Below are positions 1,796 through 30,808 of a stretch of 64,000 nt of DNA, one piece after another. How positions within the stretch are numbered: position 1 is the stretch's first letter; each line of letters starts with the position of its first letter. This stretch comes from Bdellovibrionales bacterium RIFOXYA1_FULL_36_14. Lineage in GTDB: Bacteria > Bdellovibrionota > Bacteriovoracia > Bacteriovoracales > Bacteriovoracaceae. The stretch spans positions 1 to 64,000 of the forward strand of contig MEPW01000037.1 in NCBI GenBank assembly GCA_001769975.1, written 5' to 3'. Under the pieces are notes generated by a model. The model saw only the letters and a program-made list of their open reading frames with translations, made no database searches and was not told the DNA's origin. Made by a program: the position numbers and the translations under genes.

Positions 1796-4700
1796 AAAAC
1801 GAATCGAAGTTGTTAATATTTATTCCAACGATAAATATAACTATTTGCTCAAAAAGAACCAAGGGAAATTTGATATAAACGCAATTAAAGAAATTTCGTT
1901 TTTTAAAATGGATATTGATAGCTTGAAAGAGTTAAACCAGAACGTTCTGGAAATATTTTATGACTCCATTATTCAAGAAATATATCAGAAGGACTACACT
2001 ATTCCTGCTAATTATAACTACGCTGTAGAAATAGGATTTCGACCGGGTGTTACGGATAATTTAGCCAAGACTACTATAGAGGCTTTGCACCTAATGGGAA
2101 TCAAAGCCAAGGTCTCTACTGGTAAAATATTCTTTATAGAATCGACTATGACTATTAAATTTATGCAACAATTTGCCAGAGAAATGTTGGGGAATGAGCT
2201 AGTGGAGACAATAGTTTTACACAACATTATAGAATTTAAAAACACTAACCGTTTTTCAAATATTCATTTGCCCGAAGTAAAACTTGAGGCAAAATTTGAA
2301 ATCAACGAAATAAATTTAAATGTATCAGATGAACAATTGAATAAAATCAATCAAGATCGGTGTTTAGCTTTGACACTAAAAGAATTAAAAAGCCTCAGGG
2401 ATTATTATAATTTAGAAGATGTTAAAAGCTCTCGTAAGAATATAGGACTGCCAACTAATCCAACAGATTTAGAAGTGGAGGTCTTCGCACAAACCTGGAG
2501 TGAGCATTGCAAACATAAAATATTTGCTGCTGAAATAGAATATTACGAATCAGATGATGCTAAATCAACAGACAATTATGTATTAATTGATAGTCTTTAT
2601 AAAACTTATATTAAAAAGCTTACTCAAGCACTTGCCAAAGATAACAATATCGACTGGCTGGTGTCTGTTTTTGATGATAACGCGGGGATTGTACGTTTCG
2701 ATGATAATATTGATTTGTGTATAAAAGTGGAAACTCACAATAGTCCATCGGCACTGGATCCTTTTGGAGGATCAATTACGGGGATACTAGGAGTTAATAG
2801 AGATATTTTAGGTTGTGGTATGGGTGCTAAACCAATTGCTAATACCGATATTTTTTGTTTTTGCGAACCTACTTGGCCTGATCAAAATTCTTTGGCTGAA
2901 CTGCCTGTAGGATTAAAACATCCTTCTCAAATTCTTCGTGGTGTTCATAAAGGTATTGAGGAGGGCGGTAATAAAAGCGGTATTCCTACTATTAATGGTG
3001 CAATTTATTTTGATCGCAGTTTCGCAGGAAAACCGCTGGTTTTTTGTGGCACAGTCGGTGTTTTACCTCAAAAACTTTCTGATTATACTCCTTCTTTTCA
3101 AAAAAAAGCCAAAGTGCATGATCGTATTATTATGATTGGCGGCGATATAGGTGCGGATGGGATTCATGGTGCAACCATGAGTTCGCTCGAATTAAATGAA
3201 AATTCTCCAGCGACAGCCGTGCAAATTGGCGATCCGTTAACGCAAAAGCGTATGCTTGATTTTATTATGGTGGCCAGAGATCAACAACTTTTTAACGCAA
3301 TTACCGATAATGGGGCTGGCGGACTTAGTTCCAGTGTGGGAGAGATGGCTACCCAATCAGGTGGAGCGATAATTGATCTTGCCCGTTGTCCGGTTAAATA
3401 TCCAGGTCTTTCGCCCTATGAACTTTTGATTAGTGAAAGTCAGGAAAGAATGACTTTATCAGTTTCCCCAGGCCAACTTGAAAAAATTAAAAAGTTAGCA
3501 GATAGGTATGGTGTCATTTTAACGGATATTGGTGAGTTTTCCGATAGTGGCTATTTGGTGGTATTTTATAATAGTGAATTGGTGGGGCAAATAAATATTA
3601 ATTTCCTACACCACGGTCTTCCTAGATTATCACTTAAAGCTAAATGGAGTGGGCCGCAATTAGATAAAAGCTGGTCCACACCTTCCAATAAAGAATATAT
3701 CGAAAATTTTGATAAAAATCATCTGCTTGCTTCTTTAAAATTACTTTTGCAAAGAAGCAATATTGCTTCTAAACAGTCTCTGGTTAAACATTACGATCAC
3801 GAAGTGCAGGCAGCAACTCATATTAAGCCATTTATGGGACAAACTCAAAATGGACCCAGCAACAGTGGGGTTATTTGGTTATATCCGCATGGTGGTAGTG
3901 CTGACAATGGTATTGCAATATCTTGTGGCTTAAATCCAAGGTTGTCTCAGTACGACCCTTATTTGATGGCACAGTATGCAGTTGATGAAGCCCTGAGAAA
4001 TGTAGTTGCTTGTGGTGGTGATCCTGAAAAAACTTGTTTGTTGGATAATTTTTGCTGGCCTGACCCGGTAGAAAGTTTAAAAAACCCAGATGGTGAATAT
4101 AAACTTGGCCAATTAGTGCGTACATGTCAGGGACTCTATGATATCTGCTATGAATATAAAACACCTCTAGTCAGCGGTAAAGATAGTATGAAAAATGATT
4201 TCAGAGGAAAGACGGTTGATGGAAAAGAGGTTTGCATAAGTATTTTGCCCACTTTGCTAGTCACAGCCATGAGCAAAGTAAACATAAATCACACCTGTAC
4301 GTCAGGATTTAAGCAAGCTGGTGATGTGATTTATGTGGTGGGAAATAATACTTCCGGGTTGCTAGGGAGTGAATATCTTGAAGAATATGATCTAATTAAT
4401 AAAAAGTATCTAGTTATTCCACCTATATCTCTTGAATCAAACTTGAAACTTTATAAGACAATATATAAGGCAATCAATCAAAATCTTTTAGCATCTTGCC
4501 ATGATATTTCAGACGGAGGAATGTTGATTTCTCTGGTGGAATCTATGTTTGAAAATAACTTGGGTGCTCACCTTAATATTTTCGGTTGGGAAAATATTGA
4601 TTTAATAAATTTATTGTATAACGAAGGGCCAGGTAGATTTATTGTAAGTGTTCCAAAAGTTTATCAAGGTGATTTTGAAAAACAATTTGGTAATTTAACT

Positions 4701-5588: not shown

Positions 5589-7157
5589 ATGAGAGCACTT
5601 ATAAGCGTTAGCAACAAATCAAATTTGCAGCAATTGGCACAGACGCTGGTAAAATACAATATCCAAATTATTTCCACTGGAGGAACGGGAAAAGTGTTAA
5701 AGGATTTAGATATCAATTATATTCCAATAGAAAACATAACAGGCAATCCTGAAGCGTTTAACGGTCGAATGAAAACTATTAGCTTTCAAGTTTTAAGTGC
5801 AATACTTTATAATCGAAATTCTGACTCAGATGTAGCCCAAGCACAGAAGCTTGGAATACAGCCAATTGATCTAGTGGTTTGCAATCTTTACCCATTTATG
5901 GAAGTGGTTAAAAATGACAAATATGCTTTGGAGAGTGAGCTGGTTGAAAATATTGATATCGGCGGGCCAACCATGATCAGGGCTGCGGCTAAAAACTTTG
6001 AATCCGTTACAATTTTAACTAATTCAGATCAATACGATGAATTGGCCAAAGAGTTAGAAATAAATAAGGGTACAACAACATTAAGTTTTAGAAAAAAAAT
6101 GGCCTTAGCTGCTTATCAGCTTACTTCTGCTTACGATTCATTTATTGCATCAACATTTGAAAAAAGATTAGATCAATGTAATACTACAATTTATCTTAAT
6201 TCTACCGATACAAAAAAATTAAGATATGGTGAAAATCCCCATCAAAAAGCATGGCTATATAAAAACCAACTGACTGATGAGGGATTAGCCTACGCTAACC
6301 CAATTCAAGGTAAGGAACTATCACATAATAACTATCTCGATGCTGATGCAGCTATAAAATCCAATCAGGATATTTCACAAATAAATCATTCAATATTTAA
6401 ATCAGCATGTACCATTATTAAGCATCTGAACCCTTGTGGCGCAGCTTTGGCCAAAACACCCTTGGATGCACTTAAGCTTGCCTGGAATGGTGACCCCATA
6501 AGTAGTTTTGGTTCTATTATTTGTTTCAACCAAGAAATTCATGAAGACATTCCTCTTTGGTTAGATGATAAATTTGTGGAAGTCATTATAGCACCTGCAT
6601 TTTCAGCCAAAGCACTTACATTATTTTCCAAGAAAAAAAATCTTCGTTTGATTCCTATTGATCCGAGCATGATTAATAATGATCAATTGGTAGTAAGGTC
6701 AATCTCTGGTGGATTTGTGGTACAAACAGAAGACTTAGGACTCGATCTTGAATTTCAAACAGTCAGTAAAACACTTTTTCCCAGTGAAAAAAAAGAACTG
6801 GCTCACTTTGCAATTATGGTAACAAAACATCTAAGAAGTAATGCTATAGGTTTAGTTTGTGATACCCCTGAAGGTTTTGCTTTAGCAGGAGCTGGAATGG
6901 GTAATCCTAACCGGGTTATTTCTTTGCAAGAAGCGATCAATAAGGCAAAAGAAAATAATCAAACTAATTTCAGTGAAATGGTGCTCGCTTCAGATGCTTT
7001 TTTTCCTTTTGCAGATAGCATCGAACTGGCTAAAACAAATAACATCAAATATATAATTGAGCCAGGTGGAAGTATTCGGGATGATGAGGTTATCAAAGCA
7101 TGTAATGAAAATAATATTTCGCTGGTGTTTACAGGCACCAGACATTTTAGACACTAA
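5589..7157 (+). CDS. purH: Bifunctional AICAR transformylase / IMP cyclohydrolase (PurH)
   Basis: Catalyses the last two steps to IMP: formylation of AICAR, then ring closure. The length of 522 residues is usual. The N-terminal MGS-like cyclohydrolase domain (residues 1 to about 195) shows ISTGGTGKVLKD and NIDIGGPTMIRAAAKN. The transformylase part begins near KLRYGENPHQKAW and contains the IIKHLNPCGAAL motif, whose Lys-His are catalytic, plus ending motifs EPGGSIRDDEVI and FTGTRHFRH. Shine-Dalgarno TAGGAG precedes the ATG, and the gene sits 12 bp after purQ and 9 bp before purM in the same operon. Confidence 0.96.
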   Translation: MRALISVSNKSNLQQLAQTLVKYNIQIISTGGTGKVLKDLDINYIPIENITGNPEAFNGRMKTISFQVLSAILYNRNSDSDVAQAQKLGIQPIDLVVCNLYPFMEVVKNDKYALESELVENIDIGGPTMIRAAAKNFESVTILTNSDQYDELAKELEINKGTTTLSFRKKMALAAYQLTSAYDSFIASTFEKRLDQCNTTIYLNSTDTKKLRYGENPHQKAWLYKNQLTDEGLAYANPIQGKELSHNNYLDADAAIKSNQDISQINHSIFKSACTIIKHLNPCGAALAKTPLDALKLAWNGDPISSFGSIICFNQEIHEDIPLWLDDKFVEVIIAPAFSAKALTLFSKKKNLRLIPIDPSMINNDQLVVRSISGGFVVQTEDLGLDLEFQTVSKTLFPSEKKELAHFAIMVTKHLRSNAIGLVCDTPEGFALAGAGMGNPNRVISLQEAINKAKENNQTNFSEMVLASDAFFPFADSIELAKTNNIKYIIEPGGSIRDDEVIKACNENNISLVFTGTRHFRH

Positions 7158-23135: not shown

Positions 23136-23189
23136 CAACAAAAATTAGTTTTTTTATCTATTCTGGTGAACTAAAAGATTTGTTGATCG

Positions 23190-23282
23190 ATGACGGTTAG
23201 AATTTTTGAAGATAATACTTTGAGTATTTCTTTCGCTGTTCTTTGTAGAGTATTGGAAGCTAATGGCCAAGATGTGAAATGA
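23190..23282 (+). pseudogene. Decayed 3' fragment of a HTH antitoxin gene
   Basis: Translating from 23190 gives MTVRIFEDNTLSIS then a stretch ending VLEANGQDVK before a stop at 23280-23282. This closely matches the C-terminal part of the intact antitoxin at 24042-24341 (RILKDDTFGIS and KVLGANGQDVK). The nucleotide match continues past the stop to about 23310 (AGCTAAAAAGCAG), where a small length change relative to the intact gene produced the stop. The N-terminal DNA-binding part is missing. It lies directly upstream of the toxin-antitoxin promoter. Confidence 0.75.
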
Positions 23283-23311
23283 AGTCATACAAATATTAGC
23301 TAAAAAGCAGA

Positions 23312-23342
23312 TTGACAAACACTACTAAATATAGTAGTGTTT
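23312..23342 (+). promoter_or_regulatory. Promoter with palindromic operator of the DUF4160 locus
   Basis: TTGACA (23312-23317) is followed after 17 bp by TAGTGT (23335-23340). A perfect inverted repeat with 11-bp arms, AAACACTACTA and TAGTAGTGTTT (23317-23342, spacer AATA), fills the space between the two hexamers. The geometry is that of an autoregulatory operator of a toxin-antitoxin operon, where an HTH protein dimer would block RNA polymerase. Confidence 0.7.
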
Positions 23343-23354
23343 AGGCGAGGACTC

Positions 23355-23549
23355 ATGGGCCGGAAAAAACGTGGGGGATATATTTTTGAATGGTGGATGG
23401 GTGATCACACTCCCAAGCATGTCCACGTATATAAGAATGGGATTCAAATTGCGAAGATAGGAATTCCTAACCTTATTGTTTTGCAGGGAGCGATGACGAA
23501 AAAACTTAAGAAAATATTGCAAGAGATGATTAAGGAAAAAATATTATGA
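23355..23549 (+). CDS. DUF4160-domain protein, probable toxin-like partner
   Basis: About 64 residues: MGRKKRGGYIFEWWMGDHTP, then KHVHVYKNGIQIAKIGIP. The HxPxHxHVY pattern is that of DUF4160, small proteins often encoded next to DUF2442/HTH partners. ATG 23355 is chosen because GCGAGGA precedes it; an in-frame ATG at 23337 would fall inside the -10 region. The stop overlaps the next ATG by 4 bp. Toxicity is inferred from the gene arrangement only. Confidence 0.7.
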   Translation: MGRKKRGGYIFEWWMGDHTPKHVHVYKNGIQIAKIGIPNLIVLQGAMTKKLKKILQEMIKEKIL

Positions 23550-24010
23550 AAGATACTAAATTTAAAAATGTGAAATTTAATAATCGAAAACGTCTGATTG
23601 AAGTTACTTATACTTCGGGTAAAAAATATACTATTCATTATAGTTCTCTGGGGATTAAGAAAAATATTTTAGAAGCATTGATTGATGATGAAACCAAAGG
23701 GCATTCCATTATTTTTAAATTTAACGATGGTAAGCATGATTATATGCCCTATGATCAGCCGCTGGCCATTATGAAAGATCCAGAATATTTATTGTCTACA
23801 CATATTGAATACATTACTGCCATGATTAAAAAAACGCTTAAGGATAAAAAGATTTCAAAAAAATATCTAGCAGAGCAATTGAACACTTCTGAAAACCAAA
23901 TCCATCGTCTTTTAAATCCCACCATTTTAAATAAAAATCTTGAACAACTTTATAAGATAATCTCACTGCTTGGATATGAATTTAAAATTTCAATTGATCA
24001 GGCAGCCTAG
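23546..24010 (+). CDS. DUF2442-like + HTH (XRE) fusion protein, probable antitoxin
   Basis: 154 residues in two parts. Residues 1-80 form a small beta domain (RLIEVTYTSGKKYTIHY, then DGKHDYMPYDQPLAIM and KDPEYLL) resembling DUF2442. Residues 90-150 are a Cro/C1-type helix-turn-helix (ISKKYLAEQLNTSENQIHRLL, where the HTH spans about 105-125). Start codon overlaps the DUF4160 gene (ATGA-type), with AAGGAAAAAAT upstream. The HTH part is the natural candidate to bind the palindrome upstream of the operon. DUF2442 assignment is by pattern, moderate certainty. Confidence 0.7.
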   Translation: MKDTKFKNVKFNNRKRLIEVTYTSGKKYTIHYSSLGIKKNILEALIDDETKGHSIIFKFNDGKHDYMPYDQPLAIMKDPEYLLSTHIEYITAMIKKTLKDKKISKKYLAEQLNTSENQIHRLLNPTILNKNLEQLYKIISLLGYEFKISIDQAA

Positions 24011-24041
24011 CTGGTATTAAAAAATGCGTTGGTGATGCTTA

Positions 24042-24341
24042 ATGAAAAATAATAACATCGTAACTAATAAAACGCCCCATGCTTTAGTAAAATCTCCAGG
24101 TCTTGCTACTGCAAATGCAGTTGAATGGGAAGTCCGTTATAGTGTAACCAAGAAAATTATTGAGACCGTCAAAAATAAATCAACATCAGTAGCCCAATTA
24201 GCAAAAGATTCAGGAATCTTGCGAGGTAGAATTACACGAATTTTAAAAGATGACACCTTTGGCATTTCTCTTGATGTTCTTTTTAAAGTATTGGGTGCTA
24301 ATGGCCAAGATGTGAAACTGAGCTATAAAAAAGCAGCTTGA
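24042..24341 (+). CDS. HTH (XRE/HigA-like) antitoxin-type regulator
   Basis: 99 residues. N-terminal flexible segment (TPHALVKSPGLATANAVEWE), then a HTH of the HigA/HTH_37 kind: VTKKIIETVKNKSTSVAQLA, KDSGILRGRITRILKDD, FGISLDVLFKVLGANGQDV. Located 31 bp after the DUF2442-HTH gene, probably the same operon. There is no HigB-like toxin beside it, so it may be an orphan or use the DUF4160 protein. A degraded copy of its 3' half sits upstream at 23190-23282, indicating an earlier duplication or replacement. Confidence 0.75.
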   Translation: MKNNNIVTNKTPHALVKSPGLATANAVEWEVRYSVTKKIIETVKNKSTSVAQLAKDSGILRGRITRILKDDTFGISLDVLFKVLGANGQDVKLSYKKAA

Positions 24342-24406
24342 GAAGCAATGCTGATCCCCTTGAAGTCCATATATAAGAGCAATGTGTTCTATAATCCTAA
24401 ATAACA

Positions 24407-24463
24407 CTTGAACACTATATAGCTGATAAATACATTATGTTTATTAATTGAACTACCATCAAG
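24407..24463. repeat. Dispersed 57-bp dyad repeat, copy A
   Basis: Begins CTTGAACACTATA, contains GATAAATACATTATG and ends ATTGAACTACCATCAAG. A second copy (29550-29604) matches at about 88 percent with one 2-bp gap and the same orientation. The ends CTTGA and TCAAG are inverted, and the centre ATAAA/TTTAT is a further dyad. It lies 66 bp after the antitoxin stop; copy B lies 15 bp after the ATPase stop. Function unknown. Confidence 0.75.
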
Positions 24464-24602
24464 TAAAAATTATGATTTTCAATGAAAGTTATTCAATAAA
24501 AAAGCTGTCAGCAAAAAAGTAAGCGCTCCATAAATCCCACCTTTTAATAATTTCACCCTTTGAGATACTGTGATCAGTTTTAGTACTTTCAAGGAGGAAA
24601 GC

Positions 24603-24764
24603 ATGTCTAGAATGATTAGATCCAAAGATCAATGGAATCGCTTAATCAATCTGTATACTCAATCAGGACAGATCAAGGTGGTTAATCCTTATAAAGTAGA
24701 TGGCGCAAAATACTTATCTGATAAAAAAATTGCCTGTATTCCTAAACTAGAAACATTTGAATAA
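24603..24764 (+). CDS. Small protein (53 residues), unknown
   Basis: Starts at ATG 24603 with an excellent AAGGAGGAAAG ribosome site; an in-frame ATG at 24570 has none. Sequence MSRMIRSKDQWNRLINLYTQ, then SGQIKVVNPYKVDGAKYLSD, is soluble and basic, without a signal peptide. No family recognised. Its strong ribosome site and location among accessory elements suggest a genuine, possibly well translated gene. The long inverted repeat at 24782-24827 follows it. Confidence 0.6.
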   Translation: MSRMIRSKDQWNRLINLYTQSGQIKVVNPYKVDGAKYLSDKKIACIPKLETFE

Positions 24765-24781
24765 ATAACAAACGAAGATCA

Positions 24782-24827
24782 GTAAGCGGTAAATAACCCA
24801 AAGATGAGATTGTCATTTATCGCTTAC
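24782..24827. terminator. Long inverted repeat after the 53-residue gene
   Basis: GTAAGCGGTAAATAA (24782-24796) and TCATTTATCGCTTAC (24813-24827) pair over 15 bp with two wobble or mismatch positions around a 16-nt loop. There is no T-run, so it may be a Rho-dependent or weak terminator or an RNA-stabilising hairpin, placed between convergent genes. Confidence 0.45.
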
Positions 24828-24894
24828 ATAAATTTAGCGATTCCTCTCGAATTTTATGTTAAGTAAGGATTAACCGAAAGATCCACTTGAAAAA

Positions 24895-25581
24895 TTATCT
24901 CCATAAAGCTTTCATATCTATAATGTGAATGTAGAAGATTCCAACCTGTAAATAATTTGCTTTGATACTGGTTTTTCCAAGTGTCTCAAAATCTTTTGTT
25001 TTAAAATTTATTTGGCGACCTTGTAACCTTAGACCGTTTTTATCATTCCAATAATAAGCCAAACCAGCTTCATAATAAGAACCCACGTATGAATTTGATG
25101 AACTCATTTTGTATCCTTCTAGTGATTGGTTGTTTCTATTTTTGAAATCAAATTCGTCATGATTTATATTTGCTGATCCTCCGAGTACTCCACCTCCCAC
25201 TAAAAATTTAAATTGTTTTGAATTTATAAGTCTCCATCTCATTCCAAGGTAACCGGTTAACATGTCCATGGTAGATTCTAAATCAGATGTTGTGTTGCTG
25301 ACACTTGAGTTTTGTGGATCAATGTAGGAATATTCAACTTGTGCACCACTACTACTATAACTTCCCATGAGAGCAAAACTAAATCCCCAGAATAAGTTAG
25401 TTTCAAAATCTAGCTCAAGTCCTACCCCAGAATTTGCACGAACTATCTCTTTTTCATCACTAGTCTTGGCTTTGCTTTTAAAACTGGTGGTAAAAATACC
25501 TCCTGGAGAGAAATAAAAATCCCCAAATGCTTGTGAAGAGAAGAAAGTTGTTAAAAGTAATAAAAATAATACAATTTTCAT
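24895..25581 (-). CDS. Outer-membrane beta-barrel protein
   Basis: 228 residues; signal peptide MKIVLFLLLLTTFFSSQAFG, then alternating amphipathic strands (FYFSPGGIFTTSF, GVGLELDFETNLFWGFSFAL, LGMRWRL, YYEAGLAYYWND) ending KANYLQVGIFYIHI. This resembles opacity/OmpW-like eight-strand barrels. CTGAGGTAGAT precedes the ATG. It follows the Lnb-fold gene by 12 bp on the same strand and is certainly co-transcribed with it. Specific cargo not deducible. Confidence 0.75.
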   Translation of the reverse strand: MKIVLFLLLLTTFFSSQAFGDFYFSPGGIFTTSFKSKAKTSDEKEIVRANSGVGLELDFETNLFWGFSFALMGSYSSSGAQVEYSYIDPQNSSVSNTTSDLESTMDMLTGYLGMRWRLINSKQFKFLVGGGVLGGSANINHDEFDFKNRNNQSLEGYKMSSSNSYVGSYYEAGLAYYWNDKNGLRLQGRQINFKTKDFETLGKTSIKANYLQVGIFYIHIIDMKALWR

Positions 25582-25593
25582 ATCTACCTCAGT

Positions 25594-27462
25594 TTAAAAA
25601 TCATAAAGCATATTAACGCTGTTGTCATGATTGCTGCTTATATCATCTAGAAAACTATTATATTCGCTTTTTAAGTTTAAGTGTAGATGTGGAAGAATGT
25701 TATGTATTCGTAACTCAGCAAGAGACGTCAGTTTTATAAGGCGCTCTTGTTCAATGAGTTCTTTTAATATTTTTTGTGAGACCAACAATTTAAGTCGCTT
25801 AATGGATACTACTGTAGTGAATTCTAATCCAACCCATGATCTAATAGATTTGGGTAAATCTGACCCAAGTTGAAGAGTGGTTGTAAGAAGGCTGTGTAGG
25901 TCGACAGACTTTGATAGGTCATTACTTATGCCTATCGAAGGAGATACTTCGTAATTCTTACATTCGATACATGAGTAATCATTATTAATCCAATATTTCG
26001 CATTGAATTTCCAGGATAAAATTGGATCAATCCAAGTGAAAGGCGCCATGTTGGCAACATCTATAAATGATATTTGATAAATTTTAAATGAATTATTATC
26101 TGCATAATATCTGAAATTAGTTTCAAAAAAATTAAATGACGAATTTTTTATGAAACCGGGATCATCGTCCATTGTTTTGTGAAACCCAGGTCTGAAGGTA
26201 AGTTGATGAAATATATTATTATTGAGAATTTCACCAAAACCATATTCAACAAAAAAATTAAGATGGCTTTTAAGTGGAGAAGAAGGAGATGGGATAGTAT
26301 ATTCTTCAGCTGTAGGTAGTTTAGATCGTACGAATAACACTTTGTTTTTAAATTCTTTCCACTCGGGATCTGATTTTCCTGATTTTTTCTGTTTTTCTAA
26401 AGATGCATAGTCTAAAATCGTATCGATTGAGTTTACATTTAATTCGCTTATTAATACCATTTCTTGGATTGACTTCAAAACCAAAGCTTGTTGCTGATTA
26501 TCAAGATTGTTATATCTATGTACTAATATTCTTCTAATTGAGGGTCTGAATGTTGTTTTAGTTATTACTTTTTCTTGTTCTAACCTTCTTACTGTTTCAT
26601 GGGGTAGAACATAGAGAGGAAAATTCCTGAAAAGTTCTTTTTCGGGAAGAATAGCCTGTATCATCGCCAATATTAAATACGAACAGTTTTCATCTATGAA
26701 GAAGTAGTTTATTTCCGCATTGTGTTTTAATTCCCATATGTGATCAAGTAATTGACTAATTTGCGCTGGATTGAGATTAAGTTTATATTCCCAAATATCT
26801 CTTTGCTCCATATTGTTATACTCGTAGACCTTTCTAAAATATGGAGTTTCACTAAGAACACCTTGGAAACCTCCAAATAGTCCTTTGGTTATGTAATCAT
26901 ATGCACCTACCTCTATTGGCATGTTCGCTGCATATCCAAAAGATAAATTCAGATAATCAACTCTTTTTTTATCGATAAATTTTAAAAAGGTATGTCCCAT
27001 GATGGAGGCAGGATTTGAAATAAACTGAGAGGCAAAAATGATAGCAATCTTGTCTGCATTTATAAAATTCTTCCATCGGATTAAGTTGGGACAATTGATA
27101 TCGGTTGTACTTGTTTTTAGATGTTGTTTGATTATATTATATCTTGCCGGGAAGAGACATTGAGGATGTTCTCTATATTTTTTGATAAAGTGGTGAGGAT
27201 TATTAAATGTTTCAATTGAAGTGATTAGCTCTGAGTATGGATCAGTATGACCTGTAGAGGAAAGATAAAAGCGTGAACTTTCTTCTATCATGCCATATCT
27301 CTGACCTAAAAAATCGACTTTGTAATGAAGAAGTTTTTGCCATGACCTGCTTTCTGCAAAAGCTTTTAGTTTTTGCGGGGTACTACTTAAGGCGTAACAA
27401 ACTTGAAAATTTAGGTTAAGAAAAATTAAATAGATAAATATTTTAAGATATATTATCCTCAT
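25594..27462 (-). CDS. Lnb N-terminal (DUF4105) domain protein with barrel-like C-terminus
   Basis: 622 residues with a signal peptide (IYLKIFIYLIFLNLNFQVCYA). The central domain has the full DUF4105/Lnb pattern: SNPASIMGHTFLKF with His157, YDYITKGLFGGFQGVLSETP, and FIDENCSYLILAMI with Cys260. In characterised Lnb enzymes this domain performs acyl transfer onto lipoprotein N-termini. The last 220 residues read as amphipathic beta strands ending in Phe, like an outer-membrane barrel. Thus the protein may be outer-membrane bound, with the next gene encoding another barrel. Family call is strong; enzymatic activity is inference. Confidence 0.8.
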   Translation of the reverse strand: MRIIYLKIFIYLIFLNLNFQVCYALSSTPQKLKAFAESRSWQKLLHYKVDFLGQRYGMIEESSRFYLSSTGHTDPYSELITSIETFNNPHHFIKKYREHPQCLFPARYNIIKQHLKTSTTDINCPNLIRWKNFINADKIAIIFASQFISNPASIMGHTFLKFIDKKRVDYLNLSFGYAANMPIEVGAYDYITKGLFGGFQGVLSETPYFRKVYEYNNMEQRDIWEYKLNLNPAQISQLLDHIWELKHNAEINYFFIDENCSYLILAMIQAILPEKELFRNFPLYVLPHETVRRLEQEKVITKTTFRPSIRRILVHRYNNLDNQQQALVLKSIQEMVLISELNVNSIDTILDYASLEKQKKSGKSDPEWKEFKNKVLFVRSKLPTAEEYTIPSPSSPLKSHLNFFVEYGFGEILNNNIFHQLTFRPGFHKTMDDDPGFIKNSSFNFFETNFRYYADNNSFKIYQISFIDVANMAPFTWIDPILSWKFNAKYWINNDYSCIECKNYEVSPSIGISNDLSKSVDLHSLLTTTLQLGSDLPKSIRSWVGLEFTTVVSIKRLKLLVSQKILKELIEQERLIKLTSLAELRIHNILPHLHLNLKSEYNSFLDDISSNHDNSVNMLYDF

Positions 27463-27500
27463 TATTGTACGTAGTTTAGCTAATTCAAAAAGGAATGTAT

Positions 27501-28067
27501 ATGTTAAGACTAGTTAATTTATCTTTACTTGCTCTTGTATTTTCAACATCTGTATTTGCTATAGATTATGCAAAGTGCTCTAAAATGTTGAATAACGGTT
27601 GGTGGATGAATTATGAATATGGAGGGATTGATCAACCTTTAACTAAAGCAACCAAAAAACATGGATCATCTAAAGCAACTGCCGTTACTTCAACAGAAGG
27701 CTCTACCGCAACACTCGATCCAGGTTACTGGTCAAATGTTACAACTTCTGAGATTCAAACAAGTAGCACCTGGGGAGATTGTGATTTGTTTGCTCTAAAT
27801 AATTTGAATAAGGGGCGTGAAAAATTCTTTAAAATCCACGAGGATGAACTTTTGGCTGAAATTGCAATAGGTGAGGGGGAATTTCTAGATACATTGGCCA
27901 GTTTATCACTTTGTGATGATAGCTCTTTTAATATCTTTAAAAAGACCCTTCGAACCCATATGAGTAGTTTTATTAATAGAAAAAGTAATCAAAGTTATAA
28001 CTCTATCATTGATGCTAATATTGGTAATACCGTTAGTTTACGTGGGAAATGTCATATTTATAATTGA
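27501..28067 (+). CDS. DUF3015 family secreted protein
   Basis: 188 residues from ATG 27501 (AAAAAGGAATGT upstream; an in-frame ATG at 27495 overlaps that ribosome site). Signal peptide MLRLVNLSLLALVFSTSVFA. The mature part contains TLDPGYWSNVTTSEIQTSS followed by TWGDCDLF and GEGEFLDTLASLSLCDDSS, the pattern of DUF3015 proteins common in Bdellovibrionota-type genomes. Cysteines (YAKCSK, WGDC, SLCDD, RGKC) could pair. Divergent from the Lnb-fold gene with 38 bp between the starts. Function unknown. Confidence 0.75.
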   Translation: MLRLVNLSLLALVFSTSVFAIDYAKCSKMLNNGWWMNYEYGGIDQPLTKATKKHGSSKATAVTSTEGSTATLDPGYWSNVTTSEIQTSSTWGDCDLFALNNLNKGREKFFKIHEDELLAEIAIGEGEFLDTLASLSLCDDSSFNIFKKTLRTHMSSFINRKSNQSYNSIIDANIGNTVSLRGKCHIYN

Positions 28068-28115
28068 AATTATCAGTGTATGATAAATATATTATTTGGA
28101 TTTTTGGGGAAGTGC

Positions 28116-28200
28116 CAAAAAAAGTCAAAAAAAAAAGCCTCTTTTCGGAAGTTTTATATCATCGTAATCACTAAGTTTTTTTTGGAGCGGGATACTAGGT
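28116..28200. repeat. Direct repeat shared with the tRNA-Gly 3' flank, copy A
   Basis: Matches 30668-30750 nearly base for base: an A-rich start (AAAAAAAGTCAAAAAAA), GCCTC, then TTATATCATCGTAATCACTAAGTTTTTTT and the 3' end of tRNA-Gly (TGGAGCGGGATAC on the plus strand). The terminator hairpin of the intact tRNA is degraded here. It defines the left end of a 2.6-kb stretch bounded by direct repeats. Confidence 0.85.
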
Positions 28201-28267
28201 TTGCGCTGCTTTCGCAGCAGAACTACATCCTGTAAGCCACTTGCGACCTTCTGTAGGGCAAAATCAG
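28183..28267 (-). pseudogene. tRNA-Gly relic (3' half, interrupted)
   Basis: 28183-28201 equals the acceptor/T-arm end of tRNA-Gly including CCA. The match is then broken by about 39 extra bases containing the hairpin GCTGCTTTCGCAGC, and resumes at 28241 (TTGCGACCTTCTGTAGGGCAA), which corresponds to the variable/anticodon region of the intact gene at 30733. The 5' half is absent, so no functional tRNA can be made. Confidence 0.75.
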
Positions 28268-28269
28268 CC

Positions 28270-28329
28270 TTTACCAAAACTCGATTAATGTAGATAAAAG
28301 TTGACCAAAACTCGATTAGTATGTAAAAT
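28270..28329 (+). promoter_or_regulatory. Tandem duplicated promoter of the DUF4143 ATPase gene
   Basis: Two copies of ACCAAAACTCGATTA lie 31 bp apart. The downstream copy forms TTGACC (28301-28306), a 17-bp spacer and TAAAAT (28324-28329), a good sigma-70-type promoter 18 bp before the ATG. The upstream copy forms TTTACC (28270), a 17-bp spacer and GATAAA, a weaker version. Either two start sites or an operator repeated within both spacers. Confidence 0.6.
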
Positions 28330-28347
28330 AGTATAAAGGTGTTTTTT

Positions 28348-29535
28348 ATGAAAAATCGCTATTTGAACAATTTAATTATAACTGATGCTATTGCTGCTAA
28401 GAAAATTGCATTTGTAACGGGCCCACGTCAGGTGGGTAAGACGACTCTTTGTAAACAAATTCTAGAAAAGTTAAAAGCTAGTGATTCTTATTATAACTGG
28501 GATGATCAAGATTTTAGATTGGTCTGGATTCAATCTCCTAAAAACCTTATTGAAAAAAAGGATATTGTCGTTTTTGATGAAATTCACAAAGACCGAAAAT
28601 GGAAAAATAAATTAAAAGGACTTTTTGATCTTTATGGGAGTAAGGTTAATTTTATAGTTTCAGGAAGTGCCAGACTCGACTATTATCGAAAATCCGGGGA
28701 TAGTTTACAGGGGAGATATTTTCCATATCATCTACATCCATTCACTCTCGGCGAAACGTCTAGTATAAAACTTCCGCCTCAAAAAAATTGGCTGGAGCAT
28801 GCAAATACATCCGATATAGCATTTGATGATTTATTAAATCTGGGGGGATTTCCTGAACCGCTTTTGGGGCAGAGTCAAAATAAGGCAACCAGATGGAGAA
28901 ATTTATATCGAGAACGAATGGTGAGAGAAGATATTAGAGACCTGCAAAATGTACGTGATTTGTCGATGCTTGATAATCTTTCATTGTTACTTAAAACAAA
29001 GATTGGTTCACAGTTATCATATGAATCATTAAGGAAAGATCTATCAGTATCTTTTGAGTCAATTCTTAGGTGGATAGATTTATATGAAGCTATTTATTAT
29101 TGTTACAGAATCAGGCCTTACTCAAATAAAATTAAAAATTCTATAATTAAAGAACCTAAATTATATCTTTATGATTGGTCAAATTTAGAAGAGCAGGGAG
29201 CAAAATTTGAAAATCTGATAGCTGGGCATTTACTTAAAAATGTTCACTTGTGGACGGATGGTGCCATGGGGGATTTTAAGCTTTATTATTTAAGGGATAA
29301 ACAAAAACGCGAAGTAGATTTTTTTATTACCAATAATAATAAACCGTACCTTCTTTTAGAGGTTAAATCTAATCAAACGGCACTTTCACCTTCTCTAATC
29401 CATTATAACGAAATACTTAAACCGATGTTTTGCCTTCAATTGGTGCGCGAAGAAAAAAAAGAACGAGGTGCCAGTTTGCTTCACCCCAATATTAGAGTTA
29501 TGCATGTTAATAAGTTTCTTTCGGCGCTTAACTAA
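28348..29535 (+). CDS. AAA ATPase with DUF4143 domain
   Basis: 395 residues from ATG 28348 (AAAGGTG ribosome site 6 bp upstream; an in-frame GTG at 28339 is not credible). Walker A at 25-33 (GPRQVGKTT), Walker B in DIVVFDEIHK near residue 80, sensor-like FIVSGSARLDYYRKSGDS near 105. C-terminal DUF4143 includes LEEQGAKFENLIAGHLL and EVDFFITNNNKPYLLLEVKS, a PD-(D/E)xK-like strand pattern. Such ATPases are widespread, often accessory, and of unknown role. It lies between a tRNA relic and the intact tRNA, with its own duplicated promoter. Confidence 0.85.
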   Translation: MKNRYLNNLIITDAIAAKKIAFVTGPRQVGKTTLCKQILEKLKASDSYYNWDDQDFRLVWIQSPKNLIEKKDIVVFDEIHKDRKWKNKLKGLFDLYGSKVNFIVSGSARLDYYRKSGDSLQGRYFPYHLHPFTLGETSSIKLPPQKNWLEHANTSDIAFDDLLNLGGFPEPLLGQSQNKATRWRNLYRERMVREDIRDLQNVRDLSMLDNLSLLLKTKIGSQLSYESLRKDLSVSFESILRWIDLYEAIYYCYRIRPYSNKIKNSIIKEPKLYLYDWSNLEEQGAKFENLIAGHLLKNVHLWTDGAMGDFKLYYLRDKQKREVDFFITNNNKPYLLLEVKSNQTALSPSLIHYNEILKPMFCLQLVREEKKERGASLLHPNIRVMHVNKFLSALN

Positions 29536-29549
29536 TGTCCGTAAGGAGG

Positions 29550-29604
29550 TTTGAGCACTATAGTCGATAAATACATTATATTTATTAATTGAACTACTAT
29601 CAAG
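29550..29604. repeat. Dispersed dyad repeat, copy B
   Basis: Begins TTTGAGCACTATAG, contains GATAAATACATTATA and ends ATTGAACTACTATCAAG; about 88 percent identical to 24407-24463 over 57 positions, direct orientation. As for copy A it follows the stop of an accessory-type gene. It lies in the 187-bp gap before the next gene; the remaining bases show nothing further. Confidence 0.75.
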
Positions 29605-29722: not shown

Positions 29723-30502
29723 ATGAGAAAATTATTATTTGTGTTTTTAATTTATTCTTTGAACTCGTACTCCATGACAAAAGATGTCTTTAATAATAAG
29801 TATGATCAAATAAGAAAAGAGTTAGATGTAAAAGTTAATGAATGTCTTCAGCAAAATGACCAAGTAGTAAAAAAAGCTGTAACGAATATAGAAAATGCTA
29901 AAAACAAGGATGAATATGTAGAATTTGTTAAAGATGAAAACAAAGCTATTAACTTTATTCAAAGTTTAGATTTAAAAAAACGAGATACTCATTTCTATGA
30001 AAATAAATTAACTCAATTAATGATTAATAACTGTACCGGCCCAAATTTAAAACTATATATGTCTCTTGAAAAAGATCGAAAATATTGTGCAGAAATTTTT
30101 GATGAATTAAGTTTTATGAAAGCTTTAATATTTGCTACAAAAAATTACGCTTGGAGTAAACAAACAAAGGAAATGGCAAAAAATAAAATTTTTGATTATA
30201 TTAAGCATTTATCAAATATTGATAAAACACCCCTTGTATCTCAAATGATTCCACTTAGCTTACTTCAAACTATGATGGAGTATGGACTTATTGATAACAG
30301 TCTAAAGCAAGACATTATTGTTGCCAACGAAAATGCTAATCAACTAATGTCCAAATTTAAAGAAGAACTGAAGAATAATAAAATTAAAGATATTGAAAGA
30401 TACAATTGCAATTCATTTAAAAAGTTTAGCACGAGAGAATTAAATTACAGTTCTAAAGTACAAATTTTTTTAAAAACATTACTAAAAAAAATACTTAAAT
30501 AG
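29723..30502 (+). CDS. Secreted protein of unknown function
   Basis: 259 residues with a signal peptide (MRKLLFVFLIYSLNSYSM) and an alpha-helical, Lys/Asn-rich mature region with four or five Cys (NECLQQ, NNCTGP, KYCAEI, YNCNSF). No domain recognised. It sits in the repeat-bounded interval between the ATPase gene and tRNA-Gly. The start has AAGGACGAAAA upstream. The 230 bp after it hold the tRNA terminator and the second copy of the tRNA-flank repeat. Confidence 0.6.
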   Translation: MRKLLFVFLIYSLNSYSMTKDVFNNKYDQIRKELDVKVNECLQQNDQVVKKAVTNIENAKNKDEYVEFVKDENKAINFIQSLDLKKRDTHFYENKLTQLMINNCTGPNLKLYMSLEKDRKYCAEIFDELSFMKALIFATKNYAWSKQTKEMAKNKIFDYIKHLSNIDKTPLVSQMIPLSLLQTMMEYGLIDNSLKQDIIVANENANQLMSKFKEELKNNKIKDIERYNCNSFKKFSTRELNYSSKVQIFLKTLLKKILK

Positions 30503-30667
30503 ATATCACCTTTTGTTAAATATCCTTATAATTGATTATGTAATATGGCAGGGACATTTAAAAAAACCAATTTTCCCTTGGTATTTTCGGATCGTTGGTA
30601 ATCTCATAAGCGCACACACCAGTTGTAAAAAATATTTTAAAAGTTTTGGTGAAAATGTGGTGAACTT

Positions 30668-30750
30668 CAAAAAAAGTCAAAAAAAAAGCCTCCGAAAGGA
30701 AGCTTTATATCATCGTAATCACTAAGTTTTTTTGGAGCGGGATACCAGGT
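30668..30750. repeat. Direct repeat shared with the tRNA relic, copy B
   Basis: Second copy of the sequence at 28116-28200; it includes the tRNA-Gly transcription terminator and the last bases of tRNA-Gly. The intact tRNA continues beyond it. The 2.6 kb between both copies contains the ATPase and one secreted-protein gene but no integrase. Confidence 0.85.
30679..30703 (-). terminator. Terminator of tRNA-Gly
   Basis: Read on the minus strand, GCTTCC and GGAGGC form a 6-bp stem (one G-T pair) around TTTC, followed by a run of nine T. It lies about 30 bases beyond the tRNA 3' end. Confidence 0.8.
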
Positions 30751-30808
30751 TCGAACTGGCGACCTTCTGCATGGCAAGCAGACGCTCTACCAACTGAGCT
30801 AATCCCGC
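30733..30808 (-). tRNA. tRNA-Gly(GCC), CCA end encoded
   Basis: Minus-strand 76-base cloverleaf. Acceptor stem GCGGGAT pairs with ATCCCGC, followed by T and encoded CCA. D-arm AGCTCAGTTGGTAGAGC. Anticodon stem TCTGC/GCAGA around loop TTGCCAT, giving anticodon GCC for glycine. T-arm with GTTCGAA. Single gene, with its own promoter and terminator. A damaged 3' copy is found at 28183-28267, so this is a likely past integration or duplication site. Confidence 0.95.

Follow-up and report, generated by a model that had tools for sequence, protein, structure and literature searches.

The window, a stretch of 64,000 nucleotides of Bdellovibrionales bacterium RIFOXYA1_FULL_36_14, carries two copies of a 57-bp repeat (family A; copies c1 and c2, Table 1), which is non-coding. 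The evidence is best accounted for if the repeat is a border between exchangeable accessory blocks in a tRNA-Gly-anchored variable region of one Bdellovibrionales genus, a reading that we consider to have an even chance of being correct. Each border would close a block of toxin-antitoxin or other accessory genes and open a block that usually starts with a gene for a secreted protein. Recombination through the borders and through tRNA-Gly 3' ends would allow blocks to be exchanged or stacked, leaving mosaic junctions. Upstream regulatory sequence for the incoming gene may be part of the border as well, and the main rival explanation, a shared promoter, is compatible with the border reading.

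The copies c1 and c2 are in direct orientation and share 87.5% identity over 56 aligned columns with one 2-nt indel, close to the 88% noted when the repeat was first described in a sequence-only reading. The match has an E value of 6.6e-13 when 14 kb is compared against itself, so the likeness is not due to chance. Homology stops at the repeat edges on both sides, and the flanks are unrelated. Of the two dyads described earlier, the smaller central one (TAAAYA-N5-TRTTTA) is found in five of the six family A copies of the two species. The inverted ends are less general: CTTGA/TCAAG is exact in c1, c2 has TTTGA/TCAAG, and the end dyad is otherwise kept only partly in G1c, one of the sister-species copies (labelled G1a, G1b and G1c where they are named singly), most of which lack it. 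Each window copy does lie shortly 3' of an accessory gene as described (HTH_37 for c1, AAA_14/DUF4143 for c2), and both copies also sit 5' of a same-strand ORF, which the earlier description did not mention. Within the block that precedes c1, the HTH_37 antitoxin-like gene has a partial duplicate (23200-23293 vs 24238-24331, 78% alike) beside the DUF4160 and DUF2442-like genes.

Table 1. Repeat copies, tRNA-Gly sequences and neighbouring genes. Positions without a prefix are those of the window; prefixed positions refer to loci (L) or contigs (C).
Feature	Position	Strand	Remark
Toxin-antitoxin type block	23166-24451	+	HTH relic, DUF4160, DUF2442-like/HTH, HTH_37; ends in c1
HTH_37 antitoxin-like gene	24042-24341	+	66 nt before c1
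Repeat copy c1, family A	24407-24463	+	left part like G1a/G1b/G1c
ATTGAAC	24447-24453	+	switch point of homology between copies
53-aa ORF	24603-24764	+	strong ribosome-binding site; 139 nt after c1
Degenerate tRNA-Gly 3' part and terminator	28116-28261	-	between two repeat-bearing blocks
AAA_14/DUF4143 ATPase gene	28339-29535	+	15 nt before c2
Repeat copy c2, family A	29550-29604	+	
259-aa protein gene	29723-30502	+	likely signal peptide; 118 nt after c2
Family B, left part only	30543-30625	+	40 nt after 259-aa gene
tRNA-Gly 3' end, terminator and flank	30622-30742	-	99% identical to sister species
tRNA-Gly(gcc)	30733-30808	-	anchor of variable region
Family A copy, sister species	L014:1074-1120	-	
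Family A copy, sister species	L014:7470-7512	-	
Family A copy, sister species	L015:9389-9435	+	
Family A copy, sister species	L015:3343-3411	+	
MITE-like repeat of about 160 bp, own genome (G000)	C18:129553-135022; C48:16625, 67207, 72728		four intergenic regions on C18
MITE-like repeat of about 160 bp, own genome (G000)	C23:4752; C26:13153, 38234		

Clear family A copies were found in two species, both represented by draft genomes from metagenomes. The organism's own genome (G000; 2.06 Mb, 86% complete) holds c1 and c2 only, a number that speaks against the border reading, and the dozens of copies that had been suggested as a check of a repeat family did not appear, the exact sequence giving two. 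Four further copies belong to Bdellovibrionales bacterium RIFOXYC1_FULL_37_79 (G001), a sister species. Among 129 genomes of the family, these six copies have E < 1e-11 and all other matches E > 0.001. Matches to the repeat in collections of phages, plasmids and viruses do not rise above chance level, and a scan of GTDB genomes with a degenerate pattern returned, apart from the sister species, a single palindrome on a Bacteroidaceae contig, apparently a chance occurrence.

The window copies are enclosed by core genes, an MFS gene (to 21.3 kb) on one side and tRNA-Gly with kamA (30.7-32 kb) on the other. In the sister species these core genes enclose another set of accessory genes; its contigs C58 and C70 share 26 nt of the tRNA terminator, which places kamA and tRNA-Gly next to the island in this species as well. 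In the window, the tRNA part of the fragment at 28116-28261 is interrupted by an insertion of about 33 bp, and in the sister species tRNA-Gly 3' fragments lie between accessory blocks at L014:4641-4737 and 6296-6328. The locus is bounded on one side by a tRNA gene and contains incomplete copies of it in the manner of att-like direct repeats, as expected of a tRNA-anchored island. The elements follow the order repeat, secreted-protein gene or genes, tRNA-Gly fragment, accessory or toxin-antitoxin genes, repeat, with the intact tRNA last, which is the pattern left by successive integrations at a tRNA gene. No integrase gene was found beside the tRNA among the ORFs of 20-34 kb, and matches to PF00589 (tyrosine recombinase) in both genomes fall on other contigs.

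Signs of probable exchange are found within c1 itself. Its left part matches G1a, G1b and G1c, with homology to G1a stopping at 24451, and from 24445 onwards its right part resembles a sister-species junction that is unrelated (C59:48690). Because the two parts match different junctions, c1 is a mosaic, and the switch between its parts lies at ATTGAAC. The toxin-antitoxin block at 23166-24451, common to the sister species in two pieces of 86% and 90% identity (adjacent core 78-80%), likewise ends at 24451, inside c1. At the other end of the region, the 3' end of the tRNA shows 99% identity between the species over 121 nt, vs 84% on the kamA side. ATTGAAC is present in 14 of 40 repeat-bearing intergenic regions, where about 3.4 are expected, and 11 of 185 homology endpoints fall near it vs 3.1 at random (highest of 2000 random sets, 11). 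This excess of endpoints is modest, which weighs against the border reading, and a crossover at ATTGAAC is suggestive only. Blocks of unrelated content have these short borders and tRNA-Gly 3' ends in common, so that swapping and stacking are possible, and from the mosaic junctions and the differences in identity we infer that the borders are the probable substrate of exchange. Exchange could proceed by ordinary homologous recombination or by a putative dedicated recombinase. It counts against the border reading that the borders have no associated recombinase and that none lies within the window locus; elsewhere, tyrosine recombinases occur in both species and IS91-type transposases in the sister species.

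Several other repeats occupy junctions in the genus. Family B, of about 115 nt, is found at seven places in the sister species. Its direct similarity to family A is not significant, a further point against the border reading. A hybrid, C22b (L110, about 3805-3920), shares 64-71% identity with family B and, over 45 nt, 53% with c1 (P 0.0002 by shuffling). Significant links to c1 are confined to this hybrid and, less firmly, C59:49615, and their small number weakened the idea that families A, B and D are one family of fixed 52-nt length. Family D, of about 50 nt and ending in ATTGAAC (C2:4745, C2:127301, C59:48690 and C24:5347 in the sister species), has no demonstrable relation to A or B, which again does not favour the border reading. 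A further family, 71-81% alike (L015:9175-9290, L143:3727-3841, L110:1457-1560, C59:48701-48854), stands directly 5' of signal-peptide genes in at least three places. When 1.02 Mb of the sister species was compared, repeats were shared by 77 of the 453 intergenic regions, of which 40 are linked into a single set. This proportion (17%) is biased upward because some contigs were chosen for having matches; two 0.4-Mb subsets give 8% and 11%, and 0.4 Mb of another genus gives 2 of 132. Repeat-bearing intergenic regions tend to be adjacent (14 pairs vs a random mean of 3.4, maximum 11), and many accessory intergenic regions of the sister species are pieced together from a small number of such sequences. 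Another dispersed repeat, of about 160 bp and 67-89% alike, occurs in the own genome; it resembles a MITE by eye, and its ends are inverted, as in TTAACTGG...CAATGGGGTTGA / TCAACCCCATTG...CCAGTTAA.

The position of the copies bears on the main rival, according to which the box CTTGARYACTATA and the palindrome TAAAYA-N5-TRTTTA bind a regulator and drive the next, usually secreted, gene, the whole having been copied before several genes. We regard this as possible, if doubtful. All six family A copies stand 114-155 nt 5' of the next same-strand ORF (judged by eye for G1c, with a GTG start, and for c1, whose 53-aa ORF is too short for the caller), a pattern that also fits a promoter, and the dyad half-sites retain their form despite base changes. 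Five of the six ORFs have a likely signal peptide by inspection, the annotation coming from a home-made gene caller and a home-made signal-peptide score that detects fewer of them than visual inspection, to the disadvantage of the promoter explanation. Nine of the 12 full A and B copies directly precede a signal-peptide gene. By rough automatic annotation, the chance that a random intergenic position precedes a same-strand signal-peptide gene is about 0.19, and backgrounds of 0.19-0.25 give P of about 4e-5 to 4e-4, values that are indicative only because the copies are not phylogenetically independent. Over all repeat-bearing intergenic regions there is no such enrichment (43% vs 44%), so that the link to secretion is limited to families A and B. 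Further difficulties for a promoter are that c1 precedes the 53-aa ORF, which has no signal peptide and no Pfam match, that no common -10/-35 pattern fits all copies, that the shared stretch of 57-115 nt exceeds the needs of an operator and that homologues of the downstream gene, that of the 259-aa protein, occur in other genera without the upstream repeat. A motif common to the stretches from repeat to start codon was not clearly better than in shuffled sequence.

The earlier suggestion of a cassette end is partly supported, in the loose sense that the repeats mark joints of exchanged blocks, with independently occurring halves and many related repeats in the sister species; its strict integron form is not. 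A non-integron cassette system, in which a putative recombinase would shuffle accessory and secreted-protein genes in directional blocks by way of non-coding sites that have diverged but share a crossover at ATTGAAC, seems unlikely. The narrower proposal of a site for a dedicated site-specific recombinase (diverged attC-like, dif-like or another cassette site, again with crossover at ATTGAAC) is distinctly unlikely, even with the ATTGAAC switch in several families, the directional gene-repeat-gene arrangement (14/17 upstream and 14/17 downstream genes on the same strand) and the neighbouring runs of repeat-bearing intergenic regions to recommend it. An integron integrase (TIGR02249) over the cut-off was found in 0 of 125 genomes of the family, both species included, nor is there a match at E<=1e-30 in G000 or G001, and the tyrosine recombinases that were found score far below the IntI cut-off. 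Paired complementary RYYYAAC/GTTRRRY boxes number 0 in both window copies and, more widely, 2 in 16.7 kb of repeat-bearing vs 12 in 82 kb of other intergenic sequence. The missing IntI over the cut-off, the lack of box enrichment and the lack of a conserved hairpin speak against a canonical attC or integron; a CALIN does not require an integrase. A dif-like pattern (XerC-XerD site of about 28 bp) with up to 3 mismatches gave no match at the repeats, the consensus being of a gammaproteobacterial type that may not be this lineage's, and the copies have no common fold. A MITE, an option raised earlier, or a relic of a transposon end, for example of IS91 type, is very unlikely. IS91-type targets contain GAAC or CAAG, and the right edges of the repeats end in one or the other; in addition, family B copies are dispersed with sharp edges and the sister species has Y2 transposases. 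Against these observations, no consistent terminal inverted repeats (CTTGA/TCAAG occurs in some copies only) and, by eye in the aligned flanks, no target-site duplications were seen, left and right halves occur independently, and no Y2 transposase was found in the own genome. The surroundings of the sister-species transposases are unlike the repeats, with a longest match of about 21 nt, and an IS91 end was rejected. At L173 (G001:C2:1661-3689, minus strand), an IS91-type Y2 transposase gene lies beside a short tyrosine-recombinase gene.

The remaining explanations fare less well. A structured RNA, the third option of the sequence-only reading, receives no backing from a consensus fold that is not better than shuffled columns or from Rfam, which matches only tRNA in the window and nothing in L014/L143; single-strand folds of individual copies are no better than shuffled, or weakly so, and covariation yields no pair with both sides changed in family A and one in family B. 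That the repeat is left over from a single duplication within the locus, or from the 3' end of a gene that has decayed, is barely credible. Partial duplicates of tRNA-Gly and of the HTH gene also exist here, but a lone duplication with no further copies and with homologous flanks, the outcome that had been named as fatal to a repeat family, is contradicted by the four copies in the sister species and by the unrelated flanks. A coding origin might be read into family B and several A copies, which are open up to the TGA inside ATTGAAC; it was rejected, as no codon-position, third-position or synonymous bias appears in any frame and no parent gene, Pfam or plasmid match was found.

Known systems resemble the borders in part. 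Integron cassette arrays and CALINs (IntegronFinder 2.0, PMC9024848) likewise combine directional accessory genes, several of them toxin-antitoxin genes, with related spacers of about 60-115 nt; here, in contrast, there is no integrase over the cut-off, canonical attC or hairpin, and blocks reach several kb. The dif modules of Acinetobacter plasmids also have short repeated sites around exchangeable accessory-gene modules (PMC13141974), whereas the present borders are 57-115 nt long, chromosomal and beside a tRNA, with no XerC/XerD dif consensus found. Tandem accretion at tRNA-anchored islands, as covered in a review of integrative and mobilizable elements (PMC5704250) and exemplified by a tRNA-Trp composite island stabilised by HipAB (PMC8978831), shares the variable region 3' of the tRNA, the tRNA 3' fragments between blocks and the toxin-antitoxin cargo. 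Unlike such islands, this locus contains no integrase, and short non-tRNA borders are common to unrelated cargo.

How mosaic islands of toxin-antitoxin and secreted-protein genes are assembled in bacteria that lack integrons is poorly understood. In this little-known relative of predatory bacteria, the borders, beside a tRNA gene that has several of its own fragments nearby, offer a set of junctions at which a new site-specific system may be distinguished from homologous exchange and from simple promoter sharing, and these two from each other.
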